Source of the DNA: Parietichytrium sp. I65-24A
Taxonomy: Eukaryota > Sar > Bigyra > Thraustochytrida > Thraustochytriidae
DNA length: 64,000 bases
Assembly (NCBI GenBank): GCA_012862575.1
Contig: BLSF01000075.1
Location: forward strand, 62,001-126,000
Direction of reading: 5' to 3'
The notes below the pieces were generated by a model. That model did no database searches and was not told the origin of the DNA. It was given only the letters and a program-made list of their open reading frames with translations. The translations under genes and the position numbers were made by a program. Below are positions 13,991 to 24,673 of the stretch, piece after piece; position 1 is the first letter of the stretch, and each line of letters starts with the position of its first letter.

Positions 13991-15598
13991 CTAGGCTTTG
14001 GCCTTCTTCTTTCCAGAGCCGCTCTCAGATTTTGGAGCCTTACGTTTGGCTGTTTTCGAGGGACTGGACGTCTCTGGCTTCTTTTTTTCTGAAGTTGCCG
14101 AGTCTGTCTCTTCAGCGTCGGAAGAATCTTTCTTCTTCTTTTGCCCCCCGGACGAGGCTTTCTGCGGCTTTTGACTCTCCTTGTCGATCGACTTTTCCGA
14201 ATCTTCTGCACGTTTCACATACATGTCAACAAATTTGTCAACGTCGAACTTTCTTTTGCACCCATTGTAGTTCATGTAGCGCACCTTGCCAAAGACCTCT
14301 CGCTCTCTCCACCCTTGGTCATGAATTCCCATTATCGACCACCCGACGCCAACAAACCCATTTGGGTCGTTTCCGTCAACTGCATATACATCATTGAGCT
14401 TTTGAGCAATCTCGAGGGCTTGGGCAGGTGTCTCCGTCCACTCAAGCACCTTCTTGGCCCAATACATTCGCATGAAGCCGTGCATCTTCCCCTCCTTTCG
14501 AAGTTGAACTTGAGCTGCGATCCAGAGGCCATCATACGTAGATGCAGCCGCAAAATCTTTATACTTGTAAACGTGCTCTCGTTTGTCCTTCTCGTGCTCT
14601 TTCAAAGAGTCTTGCGCCCACTTGTACGCTCCTTTGAGGTTGTCATAATCCGGATTGTAGTAGCAAAAGTTGTCTGAAAGCTCCCTCCGCACGACAGCTT
14701 CTTCAACAAACGCTTTAATTGCGTCAGATGAAATGCTGTTCTCCTTTGCATATTGCTTAGCGTCCAAGATAGCTTGTTGCACTGAAATTTGCCCAGAGTT
14801 GAAGTAAGGCGACATTCTTGAGACGCCGTTGGTGAAGGTTGGATCGTTTCTGTGGGAGTCGTATCTGCCGAGTCGAGTTTTTGTCAAGAAGTGCTTGAGC
14901 GCTTTTTCGGCCGCGTGCGGCCCTGGTGGATAATGTTTGTCCACGGTACCGACAGAGGTGTCCATGCCGTGCTCTTCCTCGAGTTGCTCAAGAATCTTGC
15001 CCAGGTCGTTGTTGGGAAAGTCTGGCTTCTCGGACATTTTCTCTACCTTTGGAAACGGTTTCAGATATTCATCGAGTTGATTCATGATCTTTGGACGAAT
15101 AGTGCGAGCGGCATACTCGAGCTTCTCCGAAGTCTCCCATAAAGGTACTATGTTGTGAGCATCAACTCGCGCCAGAGGGCGGTCTAGCTTTTTCGACAAC
15201 TGATCGTCCCAAGCCATCTTGTCACGCAATGGTAGCATATCGGTCACAACTGCACGTGCGCGCATGTCCTTCGCCATAGCTGCCAAGTCCTTCGGAATGT
15301 CCGTGCTGATTTTCACATGCAGCGGTATATTGTGCGACTTGAGGGATTTCTCCACCTCTTTCAGACCTTCCAATGCAAAATGATAGTGCCTCAGTCCCCA
15401 GCACATGTACTTGGGCTTGACCAGGTAGACCACCGAAAGGCCGGTGCCAGCTGCAAGGGCTAACTTTTGCGCGAAGAGTAGCGCCCAGTTGTTTTCCGCT
15501 CTCTTGTCGCGAAACATCCAGTAGAGAACTGGGCCGCTGCCTTCGCTCTTCTCCACTTCTTCATGGCTCCCGCGCAGCCACTTGACCCGGTTCTCCAT
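13991..15598 (-). CDS. Class II CPD DNA photolyase
   Basis: 535 residues from ATG at 15598 (MENRVKWL). The frame stays open upstream, but without a family match. Class II photolyase signatures include VLYWMFRDKRAENNWALL at the start of the Rossmann part, DARRVVTDMLPLR-like text (ARAVVTDMLPLRDKMAWDDQ), YDSHRNDPTFTNGVSRMSPY, VVRRELSDNFCYYNPDYDNL and MHGFMRMYWAKKVLEWT, then DPNGFVGVGWSIMGIHDQGW in the FAD pocket. It repairs UV-induced cyclobutane pyrimidine dimers with light and reduced FAD. The last roughly 65 residues are a Lys/Ser-rich tail (KRKAPKSESGSGKKKAKA), probably nuclear localisation. Convergent with the myosin gene. Family certain; start moderately certain. Confidence 0.92.
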   Translation of the reverse strand: MENRVKWLRGSHEEVEKSEGSGPVLYWMFRDKRAENNWALLFAQKLALAAGTGLSVVYLVKPKYMCWGLRHYHFALEGLKEVEKSLKSHNIPLHVKISTDIPKDLAAMAKDMRARAVVTDMLPLRDKMAWDDQLSKKLDRPLARVDAHNIVPLWETSEKLEYAARTIRPKIMNQLDEYLKPFPKVEKMSEKPDFPNNDLGKILEQLEEEHGMDTSVGTVDKHYPPGPHAAEKALKHFLTKTRLGRYDSHRNDPTFTNGVSRMSPYFNSGQISVQQAILDAKQYAKENSISSDAIKAFVEEAVVRRELSDNFCYYNPDYDNLKGAYKWAQDSLKEHEKDKREHVYKYKDFAAASTYDGLWIAAQVQLRKEGKMHGFMRMYWAKKVLEWTETPAQALEIAQKLNDVYAVDGNDPNGFVGVGWSIMGIHDQGWREREVFGKVRYMNYNGCKRKFDVDKFVDMYVKRAEDSEKSIDKESQKPQKASSGGQKKKKDSSDAEETDSATSEKKKPETSSPSKTAKRKAPKSESGSGKKKAKA

Positions 15599-16417
15599 GG
15601 TCTCTCCTCCGCTCAGCTTTGTCTCGGTCGCACAGGGTCGAATGCCAAGGCAGCTGCTGCGTTCTTGATCTGCCCATGTCTGGTCCAGTGCACAGCAGAG
15701 GGCTGTCCGAATTCTGTCCGAATTCTGAAATGCAAAAAACTGAACAGACTCCTTATAGTGGCATGTAGGCACGTTACAGATATCTTAAAGAGTTTGCAGC
15801 GGTTCGCAGAATTGAGAGATTGAGAATACATAGACTTTATAATTCAGAAGGATCGGCGTGTGAGGAGATGTGAGGACTCGAATTGGAAGGAAGCAGAATA
15901 CAAAAAAATAGACATTAACAGTAAGTTTACATCGCGAACTTGAGGACGCTGGAGATCGCTGGAGACAGTGCTAACTAGAACTGGACAGCGAGTCTGCTTC
16001 TCTACCTCGCCGTCTCTCTTCTTCCCCGTGCTCCACCGTCGGGGACACCGGGCGCTCCTGCTTGCTCTCTTGCTTCAAAGTCATTCTCAATCACTGTCAA
16101 TTCGATCCAATTCAAATTAGGTTAGCACAATGCACAATGCACAACACAACTCCTTCATGGCTCATAGATGCACATGGATGTGCCCATGGAGGCGTTCGAC
16201 TAGTTGGAAGGAGCTGGCTAAAAATTTGCATCTCCAAACCTCAAGATAGTAGCTAGCTAGCGAGTTACGATTTGAAGCTGTAATGATCCTACCTTCACAA
16301 GTCCTCGAACCAGCTTTACTCTAGCAGCTACAAGATACGGTAGCAAGGAATTTGATGCGGGTGTCTCTGCGGGTACCGTGACCGGTACTATGTTGTTTGA
16401 ATGAGTTCTCAACAAAG
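15599..16417. other. Intergenic region
   Basis: No gene recognised. It contains a direct repeat of TCCGAATTCTG (15712-15729), a CTAGCTAGCGAG stretch near 16250 and an ACCGGT palindrome at 16381-16386, motifs that recur in other intergenic regions here. Confidence 0.5.
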
Positions 16418-17155: not shown

Positions 17156-20100
17156 TTATTTTGTGATAGGATACATTCCGAGCAAGTCTTCACGAGTGGC
17201 TGGGTCGTCGTACGGAAACAATCGTTCGAGAATCTTGTCTGTCAATGTTTTCAAACCGCGTTTGTATTTTGGTTCTTGGTCCAACAGAGCGAAGAGCTCT
17301 GCCTCTTCCATCTCAACTCCGATTGATTTCTCCAAGTCCTGTTTGACAAGGTCACCGATCCACAAATCTCCTGCAATTGCAATCATTCCTCTGCGCTCAT
17401 CTCTGTCCTTCATTTCGTCCACCAAAACCAGGGAAATGAAGTCCCCGGAGTCAACATGCTGCTCAGCGTAATGATACTCTCGCCCACAGTTGCCGTCTTT
17501 CTTATCTTCACGCACCTTGTCTCCGTACTCGGTGGTGAGACACACACAGAAACTTTGAGACTGGTTTATTCCACGACACATGGCTCCGTCAACATGGCCA
17601 CGCATCTGATATTTGTCAACCCAACACCTGATCCCAAAGTCGGATTCTAGTTTGGACGCGATTGCACAAACCCACTTGTGAGTTCGCTCACCTGTTCCCC
17701 AGGCGTGGGACACAAAGGTATCAAACGGCGTCCGAAATCGCGTGGACAGTCGCAGCACAGTGTCACACATGTTCTTGACCTCGGCCATGGATACAAACTC
17801 GTCATTTCGTCGCACGAATATTACCTTAAAGGCGGCTTTCAGCTCCGTATCGCGACTGTGTATCATGCACTCCAATTCCCGAAATGAGCTCATGCCCTGG
17901 CTTTGAGCGAGTATTTGCAACATCGAAAGGCAGTTTTCCACGATTTCTGTAGGTGACTTTCTCTTGTCATTGAGCGCTTGTTTCAAATTGTTTCTAATGT
18001 GGCGTTTAATTGCGTACAAGTCCTTCTTGAAAAGACGCGTCTGCTTCTCGCTGTTGTCCACTGCAGCTTGCACCGAGAATGGTGAATACGGATCCACAGA
18101 GTTTGACCGTTCATGAGGCGGGCCCTCTGAAGTGTCGTGCCCCACCACATTTGTTAAGGCTTTGCGCCCGTCGAGTCCTTCCAATTCCAACTTCTGCTTT
18201 GCCTCCACGATGGCGCGCAGGGAAGCTGCTTCGGTTCCATCCTTGCTTAGGACCAGTCGCTCCACCGGAACGTGTCGAAAACACTCCTGCAAAAGGTTGT
18301 CCATAGCATTCGTGAGTTCATCGAAGGTTTGCTTCAGGTTCGCAATATCATTTTCCTCGGAGGACAATACCATACAGTGGATGTCGATTCGGCCGCTACG
18401 TGATGGATCCCAAACCTCTGCGAGCGTAACGAAAACCTCTTTCTGACCACTCGCCCTAGGCTCAAAAAATGCCTCTGCATAGTGCTCCGAGATTGTTTGG
18501 TAATGAACAGAACGAAAACACCTCGCAATGAATCGGAGAAACAGTCCAAAAGGTATGAATGCGTAGAACTCGTATCGCAGGCGAATATCGCGCAACTCAG
18601 CCCCTCTGACACTTGAGCGGCGCATCGAGCCTCGGATTGACTTGTGCGTGCGCTTCGAGAGAGTCAGCTTTCGGTTCTCCTTGCCAAGAACGAATCCTGA
18701 TCTGAGAAACAAAGGAACCAAATACTGCTCCGGGTCGTCTGGGGATAAGCGCGGAATGCGAAATATGAGCTCAAATTGACAGAGCAATCGGACTCCGAGG
18801 GCAAACTCGTCTTCCGAGAGAGTGCACCAATGCGGGAATAGTTTTAGAAGCCTTAGGTCCAACCTGCAGTCGTCAAAGAGTTGTTGTTGCAACATACGTA
18901 GCTCTTCTTTGCTCCAACCCTCGGGTACATTGATGTCATAGAGCGTACCAAGCTCTATGCCTTCCTCACGACGCTCAAACAGATCATGGCGGAAGAGCGA
19001 CCTGATCAACTCTACCGCCCATGTTGGGTCGGTAAATACAGAGTTTTGGAGGGTCCGACCGGACATGTCCGGTGCACTATTGCTGTGCTCGTACCATAGA
19101 ATCACGCCGAGATCGTGCAGCAGCGCCAGGGCAAGGCGAAAGTGCACCTCATCGTCAACTCCTCCGTTTGTATTTCTGAAGGCGTATTGTCTCCTTACGG
19201 CCTCTTCTCTCCTCAATCTCTTCCTTCCCTTTTCAGTTAACCTCATCCGTAGTGACCTCCAGAAGCGGGCCTTCTTGATTTCAATTGCTTCAACGCCTCT
19301 GGATTCGCCTTTTGCCATCGCCATGCTGCGAACAAACTCACGGACCTGGTCAAGCCCCAAAACATATTTATTACTGTCTCGCTGGAAAGCAATCGTGGCG
19401 CGCAGCTTTTCAAAAGAGGCTGGAACGCGCATCGCCAACCCCTTCTTAGGATTAGTCGCAAGGTCTTGAAGAAAACCATAAAGGCTTTGAACACCATCCC
19501 CGGCTTTCACATCAGTTCCGCTCACGGTGAAGCATGCTGGGTCACAAAAAGAAAGCGCCTCAAACTGCTCCTTCCCATTGGAGTGTACGAAAACTGCCCC
19601 ACGAATACGCGAGCTCAACGCATTGATCTGAGCCATTGCGTCTTCCATTTTTGCCTGCGCTTCCTGATTGCTAATGCAGTCGCACTTGGTTCCAACAATG
19701 ACAACTCGTGGTTGGCTGAGCTGCACTTGCAAAGCACGGAGCCACTGCCCAGCGCACTCCTCAAACGACTCCGGCGAACCGATCCGATACTCCGAGAGGT
19801 CGATCACCACCATCACAAGACTTCGATTCGATAGAAACAGAGCGTGCGTCATGTAATATTCCTCCTGGCCACCAAAATCCCAGAGCGAGATCTCCCCGCC
19901 GGTTCCTTCTTTCGTCGCCGACTCGAACAATGCATGTTTGATGTCCACGCCGATCGTAGCTCGAGTGTTGCAATTTGCCTCGGTCGGGTTCGCTGTCATC
20001 CCCTTGTTCTCTAACGCACGGACAAGGCTGGTTTTCCCAACTTGTTGAGGTCCAACCACTAGTACCTTGAGCTGGTGCACGGCGTCTGGGTTAAACAGGA

Positions 20101-22422
20101 TGCCATCCAGATAAGCCTTCGTGTTTATCGCAAACTCCTCAGAGTCTCGATCGAGAATCACCCGTGGCACAACCGAGTGAACTGGAAACTTGTTCGCACG
20201 CGCACGTTTTGCGTAGGCGAGTACTTCCCGAATACGTGCGTCACGTATTAATCGCATATTACACCACGGCGCGAGAGCGACGTCAGCAAGGATAGACTCA
20301 GTATCGCAGTGAAGGTTGGTGAGTGTGTTGTTCAACTTGAGCGCCTCAGCAAGTGAGGATGCTCCTTTCTCACCAAATTCGTTCGAAAAAAGACTGAAGA
20401 AATAGAAACGAGTGTATCAGTCAATTGAAGAACGTTCCAGGTTAAGCAAAGATGTACAGCTTTTTCACCAAAACGGTGTCAAAGTCACACGTACTCCAAT
20501 GTAGTCAGCGCAGTGTTCTTTTCCAACCCGCGACCGATCGCTGATGCTCCTTCAGCGCCAATCTTGTTATCAGAAAGACTATTTCATTACAAAATAATGA
20601 GATCGTCAGCCACCAAGTCCAAGCAAGTTACCAAGCTTTTTCACCAAACCGGTGTCAAAGTCACACATACTCCAATGTAGTCAACACAGTGTTCTTCTCC
20701 AACGCCCGACCGATCGCAAATGCTCCTCCATCGCCAATCTCATTTCTCAATGAGTACGCACTGCCGCTAAGACTATTTCATCAAAGTGGCACAAAATCGT
20801 CAGCCATCAAGCCCGAGAAAGTTTAGTAGGGCGCTAAGCATTGTCACCAAACCGGTGTCAAAATCATACGTACTTCAGTGAAGTCAGCGCAGTGTATTTA
20901 TTAAACGCGCGGGCGATCGATGATGCTCCGTGAAGACTATTTCATTACAAAAAGACATGAAGTCGTCAGCCATCAAGTCCAAGATAGTTCAGCAAGAGAC
21001 TAGTCTCATTCACCAAACCGGTCTCAAAGTCACACGTACTCCAATGTAGTCAGCGCAGTGTTCTTCTCCAACGCGCGACCGATCGCTGATGCTCCTTCAT
21101 CGCCAATTTTATTCCATTGAAGACTATTTCATTACCAAAAGACATGAAGTCGTCAGCCACCAAGCCAAGTCCGAGAAAGATTAGTAGGAAGCTAAACATT
21201 TTCACCAAACCGATGTCAAAGTCACACGTACTTCAACGAGGTCAGCGCAGAGTTCTTCTCCAACGCGCGGCCGATCTCTGATGCTCCTTCATCGCCGATA
21301 GAATTCATCTCAAGACTAGAGAAACAAGAGATTGTCAGCCACNGTAGTCAGCGCAGTGTTCTTCTCCAACGCGCGACCGATCGCTGATGCTCCTTCAGCG
21401 CCAATTTTATTGTTGTAAAAACTATTTCATTACAAAAAGACATGAAATCGTCAGCCACCAAGTCCGAAAAAGTATAGCAAGGTTCTAACATTTTTCACCA
21501 AACCGGTGTTAAAGTCACACGTACTCCAATGTAGTCAACACAGTGTTCTTCTCCAACGCCCGACCGATCGCAAATGCTCCTCCATCGCCAATCTCATTTC
21601 TCGATCTGTTGTACGCACTGCCGCGAAGACTATTTCATCAAAATGGCACAAAATCGTCAGCCATCAAGCCCGAGAAAGTTTTGCAAGGTGCAAATCTTAA
21701 AAACCAGACCGGTGTTAAAGTCACACGTACTTCAACTCAGTCAGCGCAGTGTTTTTCTCCAACGCGCGACCGATTGCTGATGCTCCTATATCGCCAATTT
21801 CATTTTCTTGAAGACTATTTCATTACCAAAAATACATGAAGACGTCAGCCCATAAGTCCGGGAAAATTGCGCAAGAGACTAATCTTTTTCACCAAACCGG
21901 TGTCAAAGCAACACTTGACTCGGAATCGTGACACAATAGATCTCAAGACTTGCTACTTGTGAGGGCCGACTTACCCAAGCTTCAGAAGCGTTTTACTTCT
22001 CTCGAGCTTTGCAGCGATCTTTTTCGCCCCATCCGGCCCCACTTTGCATCCGGAATTAAACCTGTGTGAAGGGAAAGCACCATTAGAACCGACATCCTCC
22101 GCCTCAACAGTCTGAGAATCGGCAACTCACCACACGGCTTGTTCACCTTCGTCGATCGCCTGAAGGCCCTCGTTCAACGAGTCCACACACCAAAACCTCG
22201 CCTCCTTGCCTCCAAGCTCCTTCTTCGCATACTTGCCCATCTTTTCTTCTCCTTTATTCGTCGGCCTGCTCGTCTCCAGAGTTCGCGCACGGTATGCAGC
22301 AATGCTTTCGCGCTCTTTCACCCTGTCAAACCTTGTCTCTTTCGGGTTTGCATCGCTCACAACCTCCGGGACACAAGCTTTTACTGTTCTACCATGCGGC
22401 CATACCCGTTCCAAATCTTTCC
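17156..22422 (-). CDS. LRR-Roc-COR-TIR (Roco) protein, multi-exon, 5' end unresolved
   Basis: The terminal exon (20393..17156) encodes the end of one LRR, then a Roc GTPase (P-loop GPQQVGKTS at about 20027-20053, DFGGQEEY, TKCD), COR region and a C-terminal TIR domain (FDTFVSHAWG; CWVDKYQMRG; NCGREYHYA, Glu codon 17477-17479 aligning with the TIR NADase glutamate). No ATG opens it: the frame runs to an acceptor at 20394-20395. Upstream coding exons, by splice consensus and phase: 20578..20495, 20772..20671, 20936..20874, 21123..21040, 21315..21232, about 21421..21338 (contains an N), 21629..21525, 21814..21731, 22061..21975 and 22422..22131. Most are 84 bases, one 28-residue repeat (LSDNKIGAEGASAIGRALEK) in phase 2, so joins read TLDLSDN. 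The 5'-most exon is helical and lacks a start. Roco proteins are LRRK-like GTPase switches; a TIR end suggests NAD-based or immune-like signalling. Confidence 0.8.
20394..21974 (-). repeat. Tandem array of LRR exon-intron units, period about 165-205 bases
   Basis: Units repeat across exon and intron alike. On the plus strand each reads: an intron start conserved as CACCAAACCGGTGTCAAAGT with the donor complement (ACGTAC), then an exon with ACCGATCGCTGATGCTCC, then the acceptor side CTATTTCATTAC. Exons are 84 bases in five units, 63 at 20874 (the DNKIGAE part missing, frame kept), and 102 or 105 at 20671 and 21525 (extra residues before the NEIG core). Introns are about 92-108 bases, except 160 next to exon 21975-22061. 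Conservation of intron sequence means recent duplication of whole units, not only selection on protein. Confidence 0.85.
21343..21343. other. Single ambiguous base inside an LRR unit, probable assembly join
   Basis: The N interrupts unit 21338-21421 exactly where the intron start and the first exon bases should be: the sequence jumps from intron (GTCAGCCAC) into exon (GTAGTCAGCG). One or more repeat units may have been collapsed here, so the LRR count in this assembly is a minimum. Confidence 0.7.
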
Positions 22423-23256
22423 CTAGTCTGCGTTATTTGTGTGACAAACGTGTGCAAGGCTTACACCGGATTTCTATTGTAATCCATAGAGTTGGAGGTT
22501 GCTCAAAATCCCACTTTGAAACAAAGAGCTATTCCAATGGGCTAGACTATTCTGCCGACTATACCGGTACCGCTTTCGGAACAGAATAAAACGCATGCAT
22601 TCGTGTGCACGAACATGTAGAATCCTTAGAATTCTGTGCCTTGGTTGCTCTCACAGTCAGCCCCGTTCTAGCTAGACCAACAAGCTTTTCTGGAGCAAAA
22701 GGCCTAATCGTTCACAACTGCACACAATCAATTTTCAGTTTTCACACACTCATTGAGTTCTCTCTCCCCTCTCCTGGGCGTAATTTGTGAGTTTGTTAAT
22801 TAACCTCTCTAGAGCTGGGTACCGGTAAAGGATCACTGTCAACGCTGAATACGAGAAGACTTTTGACTTTTTATACACTCCTGCCCATGAGGTGTGATCG
22901 AGGAAAGCGATCGTTCACATACACCTCAATTTCACCGTGACCGTCACAAGACGTTCACCGTGGCCGCGCGCCCGAGTGCGGCATTGACTGTGACTTAACT
23001 TCCAAGTCACCCCCCCTCCCGATAGGGTTTGTGGCTTCTTTCCAAGTCTTAATTTTCATTAGCGGAACGAGCCTGTCCCATACATTTCTCGTAGTCCTCG
23101 GAAGAAGCAAGGTATGAAATCTAAGTCTAACGAGACCTTGATTTCCAGCGCGAAGAGCTCGTTACGAAGAGTTTTGATCGCAGTCAGTCTCTTGAGCTGG
23201 TTGAAATTGCGCACTTCCGCATTTGCTGGAGGCTTGTTTGGCAAATTAGTGATGAT
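21525..23256. repeat. Large direct repeat, copy 1 (5' part of the LRR-Roco gene and upstream)
   Basis: This 1.73 kb stretch is repeated at 23779-25511 in the same orientation, with scattered substitutions and small indels. It includes two LRR exons, the 87-base LRR exon (21975-22061), the 292-base helical exon (22131-22422) and about 830 bases upstream. The most distal part (about 22860-23256) is almost identical between the copies, while the part just upstream of the helical exon differs more. Confidence 0.85.
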
Positions 23257-23745
23257 NNNNNNNNNNNNNNNNNNNNNNNNNNNNNNNNNNNNNNNNNNNN
23301 NNNNNNNNNNNNNNNNNNNNNNNNNNNNNNNNNNNNNNNNNNNNNNNNNNNNNNNNNNNNNNNNNNNNNNNNNNNNNNNNNNNNNNNNNNNNNNNNNNNN
23401 NNNNNNNNNNNNNNNNNNNNNNNNNNNNNNNNNNNNNNNNNNNNNNNNNNNNNNNNNNNNNNNNNNNNNNNNNNNNNNNNNNNNNNNNNNNNNNNNNNNN
23501 NNNNNNNNNNNNNNNNNNNNNNNNNNNNNNNNNNNNNNNNNNNNNNNNNNNNNNNNNNNNNNNNNNNNNNNNNNNNNNNNNNNNNNNNNNNNNNNNNNNN
23601 NNNNNNNNNNNNNNNNNNNNNNNNNNNNNNNNNNNNNNNNNNNNNNNNNNNNNNNNNNNNNNNNNNNNNNNNNNNNNNNNNNNNNNNNNNNNNNNNNNNN
23701 NNNNNNNNNNNNNNNNNNNNNNNNNNNNNNNNNNNNNNNNNNNNN
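23257..23745. other. Assembly gap (489 N)
   Basis: A run of N separates the two copies of the large direct repeat. Sequence left of it matches 25511 and downstream; sequence right of it begins inside an LRR-unit intron. The rest of the second copy's gene, or an assembly error, is hidden here. Confidence 0.95.
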
Positions 23746-23778: not shown

Positions 23779-24673
23779 TCCAATGTAGTCAACACAGTGT
23801 TCTTCTCCAACGCCCGACCGATCGCAAATGCTCCTCCATCGCCAATCTCATTTCTCAATGAGTACGCACTGCCGCTAAGACTATTTCATCAAAATGGCAC
23901 AAAATCGTCAGCCATCAAGCCCGAGAAAGTTTTGCAAGGTGCAAATCTTAAAAACCAGACCGGTGTTAAAATCATACGTACTTCAGTGAAGTCAGCGCAG
24001 TGTTTTTCTCCAACGCGCGTCCGATCGCTGATGCTCCTTCAGAGCCAATCTTGTTATCATGAAGACTATTTCATTTATAAAAATACATGAAGACGTCAGC
24101 CCATAAGTCCGAGAAAATTGCGCAAGAGACTAATCTTTTTCACCAAACCGGTGTCAAAGCGACACTAGACTCGGAATCGTGAAAAAATAGATCTCAAGAC
24201 TTGCCACGTGTGAGGGCCGACTTACCCAAGCTTCAGAAGCGTTTTACTTCTCTCGAGGTTTGCAGCGATCTTTTTCGCCCCTTTTGGCCCCACTTTGCAT
24301 TCGGAATTAAACCTGTGTGTAGGGAAAGCACCATTAGAACCGACATCCTCCGCCTCAACAGTCTGAGAATCGGCAACTCACCACACGGCTTGTTCACCTT
24401 CGTCGATCGCCTGAAGGCCCTCGTTCAACGAGTCCACACACCAAAACCTCGCCTCCTTGCCTCCAAGCTCCTTCTCCTCATACTTGCCCATCTTTTCTTC
24501 TCCTTTCTTCGTCGGCCTGCTCGTCTCCAGAGTTCGCGCACGGGATGCAGCAATGCTTTCGCGCTCTTTCACCCTGTCAAACCTTGTCTCTTTCGGGTCT
24601 GCATCGCTCACAACCTCCGGGACACAAGCTTTTACTGTTCTACCATGCGGCCATACCCGTTCCAAATCTTTCC
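23779..24673 (-). CDS. Second copy of the LRR-Roco gene 5' exons, truncated by the gap
   Basis: Minus-strand exons by the same splice signals as the first copy: 24673..24382 (292 bases, helical segment ending EGEQAVW before a GTGAGT donor), 24312..24226 (87 bases, LRR with SGCKVGPDGAKKIAAKL-type text), 24065..23982 (84 bases, LHDNKIGSEGASAIGRALEK) and 23880..23779 (102 bases, matching exon 20671-20772). The frame is intact in all four. The following exons should lie in the gap. This is either a tandem paralogue or the other haplotype placed beside the first. As in the first copy, no start codon is found in the first recognisable exon, whose acceptor is at the TAAG just upstream. Confidence 0.65.

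Follow-up and report, generated by a model that had tools for sequence, protein, structure and literature searches.

What kind of receptor is encoded when an array of leucine-rich repeats (LRRs) is spliced before a Roc-COR core and a TIR domain, and how have the repeats come to vary? We addressed these questions for a gene on the minus strand (22240-17156) of a 64,000-nt stretch of the Parietichytrium sp. I65-24A genome (hereafter the window; C75:62001-126000 of a 42.5-Mb assembly of 172 contigs), in which a leader, an LRR array, Roc, COR and TIR form one spliced phase-2 frame. The LRRs are encoded by short exon cassettes that recur across the genome and vary mainly in a few codons, and the gene probably specifies an intracellular recognition receptor.

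Structure of the gene

The terminal open reading frame (ORF; 20416-17156, minus strand) spans 1086 residues from stop to stop. The AG acceptor that the original prediction had placed at 20394-20395 is present, and the terminal exon therefore starts at 20393. Ahead of it we identified ten small exons, counting one (21421-21344) that is interrupted by an assembly N, in agreement with the at least nine in-phase minus-strand exons proposed initially; all introns are predicted to be of phase 2. The gene start had been set at 22422, whereas the likely ATG is at 22240. Splicing of the leader, an N-terminal cap, seven complete array exons and the terminal exon gave a single open frame of 1346 residues, from which exon 21421-21344 was omitted as it runs into the N at 21343. 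Because this N lies inside the array, the repeat number is uncertain. A profile match to LRR_6 (E 4e-36) in the spliced N-terminus bears out the LRR consensus proposed for this region, whose best PDB matches are LRR proteins, including ribonuclease-inhibitor types. The Roc, COR and TIR domains expected in the terminal ORF were likewise recovered by profile matches (Table 1).

Upstream of the gene, the window also contains a second, partial copy of its 5' part (Table 1), and past the N run that follows it we found the repeated upstream flank. This copy may represent a tandem duplication or two haplotypes merged by the assembler. An assembly gap at 23256-23745 and the single N at 21343 fall inside or between the arrays.

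A genome-wide stock of cassettes with hypervariable codons

A genome search with a 211-nt unit of exon plus intron gave at least 313 DNA matches, introns included, and the identity of the unit outside the gene reaches 93% among the matches listed. About half of the matches were listed, and 175 units at distinct places were read from the window and 29 further stretches (26 in earlier analyses). Six units containing N were set aside, and 154 of the remaining 169, spread over 19 contigs, were intact, that is, with an AG acceptor, a strict GT donor and an open phase-2 frame. When GC donors were also accepted, borders and phase were preserved in 145 of 161 units; the 16 failures include some with N or insertions. 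Several arrays lie at contig ends, and the cassette counts are therefore probably underestimates.

Within the 84-nt cassette, variation approaches saturation at codons 2, 3 and 5; codon 26 and the codon at the splice junction vary as well, and the remainder is almost constant. We take the variable codons to correspond to the exposed (concave) positions of the LxLxxN strand, as placed from the pattern. Across the 154 intact cassettes, nucleotide diversity at codons 2, 3 and 5 was 0.65 at positions 1-2 and 0.71 at position 3, against 0.094 and 0.167 in the conserved codons, with codon 8 (0.33) regarded as intermediate and left aside from the latter figures; codon 26 reached 0.57. These cassettes display 140 distinct four-residue hypervariable combinations. 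The junction codon, in an earlier unit set, specifies mostly Asp or Asn, plus ten further residues. Diversity of the flanking introns averages 0.29-0.37 (ungapped, 135 units), a value inflated by indels.

None of the 169 N-free units carries an in-frame stop in phase 2. Under independent bases, 48 stops (31-66) would be expected at the four hypervariable codons alone, which indicates selection for open frames, and on the same comparison we rejected the possibility that these are chance exons. The other two frames carry stops in 161 and 168 of the 169 units, a weak control because these stops mostly reflect shared descent. Trp, Gln, Ser, Glu and Phe occur above expectation at the hypervariable codons and Pro, Ala and Val below it. 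Nonsynonymous distance (pN) at the hypervariable codons was 0.63 versus a synonymous distance (pS) of 0.21 at the other 23 codons, a ratio of 3.0 over 11,175 pairs of 150 cassettes; the ratio of 12 in the 239 closest pairs is inflated, as those pairs had been selected for low divergence in the same codons.

Cassettes have probably also been exchanged between arrays. The nearest neighbour by backbone lies in a different array for 105 of 149 cassettes, with ties scored as the same array. Identical patches of codons 2, 3 and 5 occur in 25 pairs versus 1.7 expected (maximum of 9 in 2000 shuffles), 11 of them within an array and 14 between arrays, where the backbones differ by 0.133 versus 0.151 for all pairs. 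The identical patches across arrays fit short-tract or whole-exon exchange, and shared descent explains part of them.

Three long cassettes (21629-21525, 20772-20671 and 23880-23779) form a distinct class with a short insertion (SGSAY... or RGSAY...); all carry the same NEIGDGGAFAIGRALEKNTVLTTL, unlike the variable 84-nt class.

Roc-COR core and its paralogues

The window ORF has the Roc-then-COR arrangement of ROCO proteins, with PF08477 and PF16095 both above their cut-offs and COR-B (E 0.098) below it. A P-loop (GPQQVGKTS), DFGGQ and GTKCD are visible in Roc, for which GTP binding and hydrolysis are predicted, and the closest solved structure is LRRK2 Roc (6oje, E 1.9e-13). An AlphaFold model of the full ORF, built on 43 ROCO relatives, had a mean predicted local distance difference test (pLDDT) score of 56.7 and a predicted template modelling score (pTM) of 0.60, and was better over Roc-COR, with blocks of 70-89. 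Its best Foldseek matches were LRRK1, C. tepidum Roco and LRRK2 (E 6e-17 to 6e-9), at modest template modelling scores by query (0.27-0.40). The protein had been called NLR-like: the LRR-Roc-COR-TIR order behind that label holds, but membership of the NLR family was rejected, as no NACHT or NB-ARC match was found in the ORF at E up to 1 and Roc-COR is a Ras-type GTPase.

Eleven COR-A matches were found in the genome, ten of them over the cut-off, and nine of the eleven lie alongside a TIR (C75, C10, C81, C107, C12, C4, C73 and two at C35), the remaining two being at C21 and C2:144 kb. Identity to the window gene across the whole ORF is 40% for C10, 35% for C81, 22% for C107 and 18-19% for C12, C35 and C73 (C4 not aligned). 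At L012:1112-6439 (C21) an LRR-Roc-COR protein has a C-terminal trypsin-like domain in place of TIR, an arrangement known from brown-algal group 3 and other SAR ROCOs according to the available part of PMC11378527. The arrangement is a hint of SAR affinity, though no proof; a search for PfaA, used as a marker of thraustochytrids, found nothing above the cut-off.

Leaders and cassettes are shared between distant cores

At the DNA level, 24 matches to the leader region were found across the genome. The second window copy is 97% identical, and matches of 79-91% occur at C107 (two), C100, C35, C12, the end of C4, C8, C53 and C146, those at C107, C100, C35 and C12 reaching 85-91% (C12 over 222 of 326 nt); matches elsewhere are of 70-83% and often short. 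ROCO-TIR cores with no more than about 20% identity are therefore preceded by similar leaders and cassettes. We found in-phase joins from cassette to ROCO-TIR core at C75, C12 and C4. At C35 and C107 cassettes precede the core, yet no convincing join was found, C107 having N there. C10 has two diverged LRR exons, and the cassette pattern search found none at C73 or at C81, which is at a contig start.

The reuse extends to other outputs. At C2 (L056) cassettes lead into a gene with a protein kinase domain (E 1.4e-27) after a charged part that appears coiled-coil-like by eye, and at C140 (L058) they precede an ORF that looks paralogous by eye, with a charged, coiled-coil-like part as well, and that runs off the fetched stretch before any kinase could be scored; phase-2 acceptors are present at both. 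At L034 (C146:26300-29300) an array is followed by an ORF that by eye seems to cross the membrane several times and may belong to an LRR membrane protein.

The TIR domain and its glutamate

The glutamate that the original prediction had aligned with the catalytic residue of NAD (nicotinamide adenine dinucleotide)-cleaving TIRs is indeed encoded at 17477-17479, and our profile alignment places it likewise. Glu980 is one of five invariant columns across 14 aligned TIRs, including that of a bacterial ROCO protein (L070, described below); the 14 were picked from about 25 segments, the first TIRs of tandem pairs being left out. The resulting profile matches 44 PDB sequences, mostly TIR domains, and sets the Glu980 column opposite a Glu of Roq1 (residue 86 by count), AbTIR and Cat1, which we take to be the catalytic residues. 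The window TIR alone found no match in the PDB at E below 0.09. Based on the aligned Glu980, the domain is possibly a NAD-consuming one. The window ORF matched none of the PADLOC anti-phage defence families at E 0.001.

The genome has 38 TIR_2 matches, 37 of them over the cut-off. Other TIR genes encode TIR-TIR-NPHP3_N proteins, some with WD40 repeats, ANK-TIR and SH3_15-TIR. The genes with two TIRs and an NPHP3_N/NACHT-like domain, some with WD40 (L009:7018-9501 on C10, L013, L015, L018 and L020), make up a second NLR-like repertoire in this genome, and one of them lies about 3 kb from a ROCO-TIR paralogue.

Proposed function

Considering the gene structure, domains, cassette stock, variability pattern and reuse before other cores, all read from the DNA, we favour an intracellular LRR-Roc-COR-TIR recognition receptor, diversified by cassette exchange and selection, as the likelier account. 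The LRR solenoid would be assembled from exchangeable 84-nt phase-2 cassettes with a common scaffold and differing exposed strand residues. A ligand bound on the LRR face would alter the state of the Roc GTPase and COR, the altered state would gather TIR domains, and the gathered TIR domains would consume or convert NAD in an immune or self/non-self role. In the germline, exons would be duplicated and exchanged between arrays and short tracts converted. These processes would keep the scaffold uniform, and about five residues in each repeat would be under strong diversifying selection.

Several observations weigh against this account. AlphaFold confidence for the TIR was low (pLDDT 37.6 for the domain alone and about 25-50 in the full model), and no TIR is known for two of the 11 COR-A matches. 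In the roughly 1.8-3 kb that follow the arrays at C29, C129, C125 and C8:396k, we saw no convincingly long ORF for an effector in the sense direction; these arrays may be donors, LRR-only genes or relics. The evidence for diversifying selection comes from paralogues of one genome, and intron diversity exceeds silent-site diversity, making the neutral baseline uncertain. Finally, the gene copy in the window may be impaired, given its shortened array exon and the assembly N.

Could the gene instead encode a ROCO signalling protein in which the TIR is merely an interaction domain and the LRR diversity serves allorecognition, in mating or fusion, and not defence? Roc-COR proteins also act in non-immune roles. 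Hypervariable, internally conserved repeats serve heterokaryon incompatibility in Podospora, as described in the part of PMC4986451 available to us. The invariance of Glu980 in the 14 aligned TIRs and its alignment with the NADase Glu speak against this alternative, as do the 38 TIR_2 matches in the genome, several of them in TIR-TIR-NACHT-like proteins, and we consider it unlikely.

Origin of the hypervariable codons

A constant scaffold combined with saturated contact codons and similar introns could have two causes, selection with concerted evolution or targeted diversification. In the second case a dedicated mechanism, either targeted mutation or programmed and possibly somatic copying from silent donor arrays, would write the hypervariable codons. 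We compared hypervariable differences with backbone and flank divergence in 11,026 pairs (755 were dropped for short flanks; junction bases and codon 8 were excluded). In favour of such a mechanism, the hypervariable difference is already 0.65 at 2-5% divergence (143 pairs, 134 between arrays), and it stays at 0.62-0.64 at 5-20% and 0.67-0.71 above; as the rank correlation is only 0.14, beyond 2% the backbone is nearly uninformative on the hypervariable codons. The two window copies give the same impression: their first cassettes (21814-21731 vs 24065-23982) have flanks with identities of 96.4% over 586 nt and 98.0% over 101 nt, and the cassettes differ at 7 of 12 hypervariable nt versus 8 of 72 elsewhere, four of these 8 at codons 8-9. 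Moreover, several arrays lack an obvious effector, and the synonymous sites of the hypervariable codons likewise show a distance near 0.7; in such saturated codons, however, this distance is unreliable and inseparable from amino-acid change.

Against a dedicated mechanism, the five pairs diverged by less than 2%, each within one array, share nearly all hypervariable bases (difference 0.03), so the newest duplicates are not rewritten at once. A base-specific signature is absent, since codons 2, 3 and 5 show all four bases at every one of their nine positions, on which ground we rejected adenine-only mutagenesis in the style of bacterial diversity-generating retroelements. The lack of stops in the 169 units points to selection, and homogenisation of the backbone by conversion yields much the same pattern. 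We therefore think it improbable that a dedicated mechanism operates. It is just as hard to credit the broader scheme of a store of at least 313 standard-scaffold cassettes, in which a dedicated process (short-tract copying from donor arrays, for example) would alter only the codons that face the ligand and which would be spliced ahead of exchangeable outputs (at least two ROCO-TIR types, and kinases). If true, a single-celled eukaryote would possess an adaptive-like receptor repertoire; the proposed resemblance, in principle, to lamprey variable lymphocyte receptor (VLR) assembly or to bacterial diversity-generating retroelements carries the same slight probability.

The possibility that the arrays belong to a mobile element or a decaying repeat family, inserted ahead of the ROCO-TIR and kinase genes and functionless there, is very improbable and, in its simple form, was rejected on the absence of stops: the hundreds of copies with introns, the position of several arrays beside Ns or at contig ends and the partial duplicate and shortened exon in the window would suit it, but splice borders and phase are preserved and variation is focused on one face of the repeat.

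Relation to known systems

With selection and cassette exchange as the preferred account, how new is this system? In the available text of PMC11378527, brown-algal LRR-ROC-COR genes (Ectocarpus, Saccharina and others) resemble the window gene in LRR-Roc-COR order, in having one phase-2 LRR exon per repeat and in exon shuffling; they are candidate immune receptors, and four concave sites of their LRRs are under positive selection. The cassettes here are likewise of phase 2 and constant length (three window array exons deviate) and appear to carry diversifying variation at exposed strand sites, but they are of 84 nt and encode 28-residue LRR_6 repeats, whereas the brown-algal exons are of 72 nt with 23-residue LRRs. 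The C-terminal TIR present here is unreported for brown algae in that text, and, unlike those described there, our cassettes resemble one another between loci, introns included, and are also found ahead of kinase genes.

Tetrahymena LRR exons, as far as PMC6564038 is available to us, are also tandem, of fixed length and phase 2, have expanded clonally genome-wide and are in some cases fused to a protein kinase; they differ in being of 90 nt and in tens of thousands of copies. We did not meet ROCO-TIR proteins or a binding-face analysis in that text, from which the terms 'positive selection' and 'concave' are absent. The NWD/HET NLRs of Podospora (PMC4986451, in part) share near-identical repeats and concerted evolution within and between genes, and their WD repeats are under diversifying selection at four binding-surface positions per repeat; these are WD40 repeats in NACHT proteins, in contrast to LRR exons before Roc-COR-TIR here.

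A Bacteroidota metagenome-assembled genome encodes LRR, Roc, COR-A, COR-B and TIR in one 795-residue ORF (L070:12-2396), whose TIR is matched by PADLOC TIR models; it differs from the window gene in being uninterrupted and in its LRR_4/LRR_8-type repeats, with 18% identity in the alignment. Such fusions looked rare, a TIR profile made from this genome's TIRs matching 1 of 82 prokaryotic ORFs from the best 80 of 119 loci, some of whose contigs end early. Compared by description, Chondrus crispus has a TPR-ROCO-TIR protein, with TPR for LRR (PMC11378527, in part), and Aplysia has proteins that join ROCO to TIR, of TLR, MyD88 and other TIR types (PMC9334734, in part). The LRR-Roc-COR-TIR architecture is thus not new, given the bacterial precedent and the Chondrus and Aplysia proteins, and LRR exon shuffling is already known from the brown-algal and Tetrahymena texts cited. 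The novelty is the combination of cassette exons with ROCO-TIR, and we found no description of 84-nt LRR exons joined to ROCO-TIR in the literature searched, whose coverage excludes most subscription papers.

What makes the system most interesting is the cassette repertoire, with its hypervariable codons, and the recurrence of leader and cassettes before other cores. The available text of PMC11378527 ties large ROCO repertoires to multicellularity and gives at most four ROCOs for unicellular SAR species. If the present organism is unicellular, its 11 COR-A matches, nine beside TIR and several fed by a common cassette pool, weaken that link, and protists become a place for studying the origin of recognition repertoires. 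The cassettes also provide a naturally occurring collection of LRR scaffolds, coupled to TIR and kinase outputs, in which the variable positions have been mapped.

Features of the window

Table 1. Coordinates of the exons, domains and partial copy in the window.
Feature	Position	Strand	Evidence and remarks
Leader exon 1	22131..22240	-	Likely ATG 22240; MGKYAKKELGG..., phase-2 end; splice model
Exon 2, N-terminal LRR cap (NSGCKVGPDGAKKIAAKLERSKTLLKL)	21975..22061	-	87 nt; AG/GT borders; phase 2
LRR cassette 1 (LQENEIGDIGASAIGRALEKNTALTEL)	21731..21814	-	84 nt; splice model
LRR cassette 2, long variant	21525..21629	-	105 nt; other acceptors possible
LRR cassette 3	21344..21421	-	3' end lost at assembly N 21343
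LRR cassette 4 (LEMNSIGDEGASEIGRALEKNSALTSL)	21232..21315	-	84 nt; splice model
LRR cassette 5 (LQWNKIGDEGASAIGRALEKNTALTTL)	21040..21123	-	84 nt; unit around it was the genome-search query
LRR cassette 6	20874..20936	-	63 nt, in frame; 21 nt below norm
LRR cassette 7, long variant	20671..20772	-	102 nt
LRR cassette 8 (LSDNKIGAEGASAIGRGLEKNTALTTL)	20495..20578	-	84 nt; splice model
Terminal exon: last LRR, Roc, COR-A (COR-B weak), linker, TIR, stop	17156..20393	-	Pfam; model resembles LRRK1/2 and C. tepidum Roco
Roc GTPase domain, ORF residues 117-246	19679..20068	-	PF08477, E 5.5e-19
COR-A domain, ORF residues 386-571	18704..19261	-	PF16095, E 4.1e-10
TIR domain, ORF residues 901-1004	17405..17716	-	PF13676 (TIR_2), E 1.5e-10; Glu980 at 17479-17477
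Partial copy of the 5' part	23779..24491	-	Leader ATG 24491, cap, cassettes 24065-23982 and 23880-23779, then N run

A 597-residue ORF lies on the minus strand at 13991-15784 of the window; judging by eye, it resembles a photolyase/cryptochrome.

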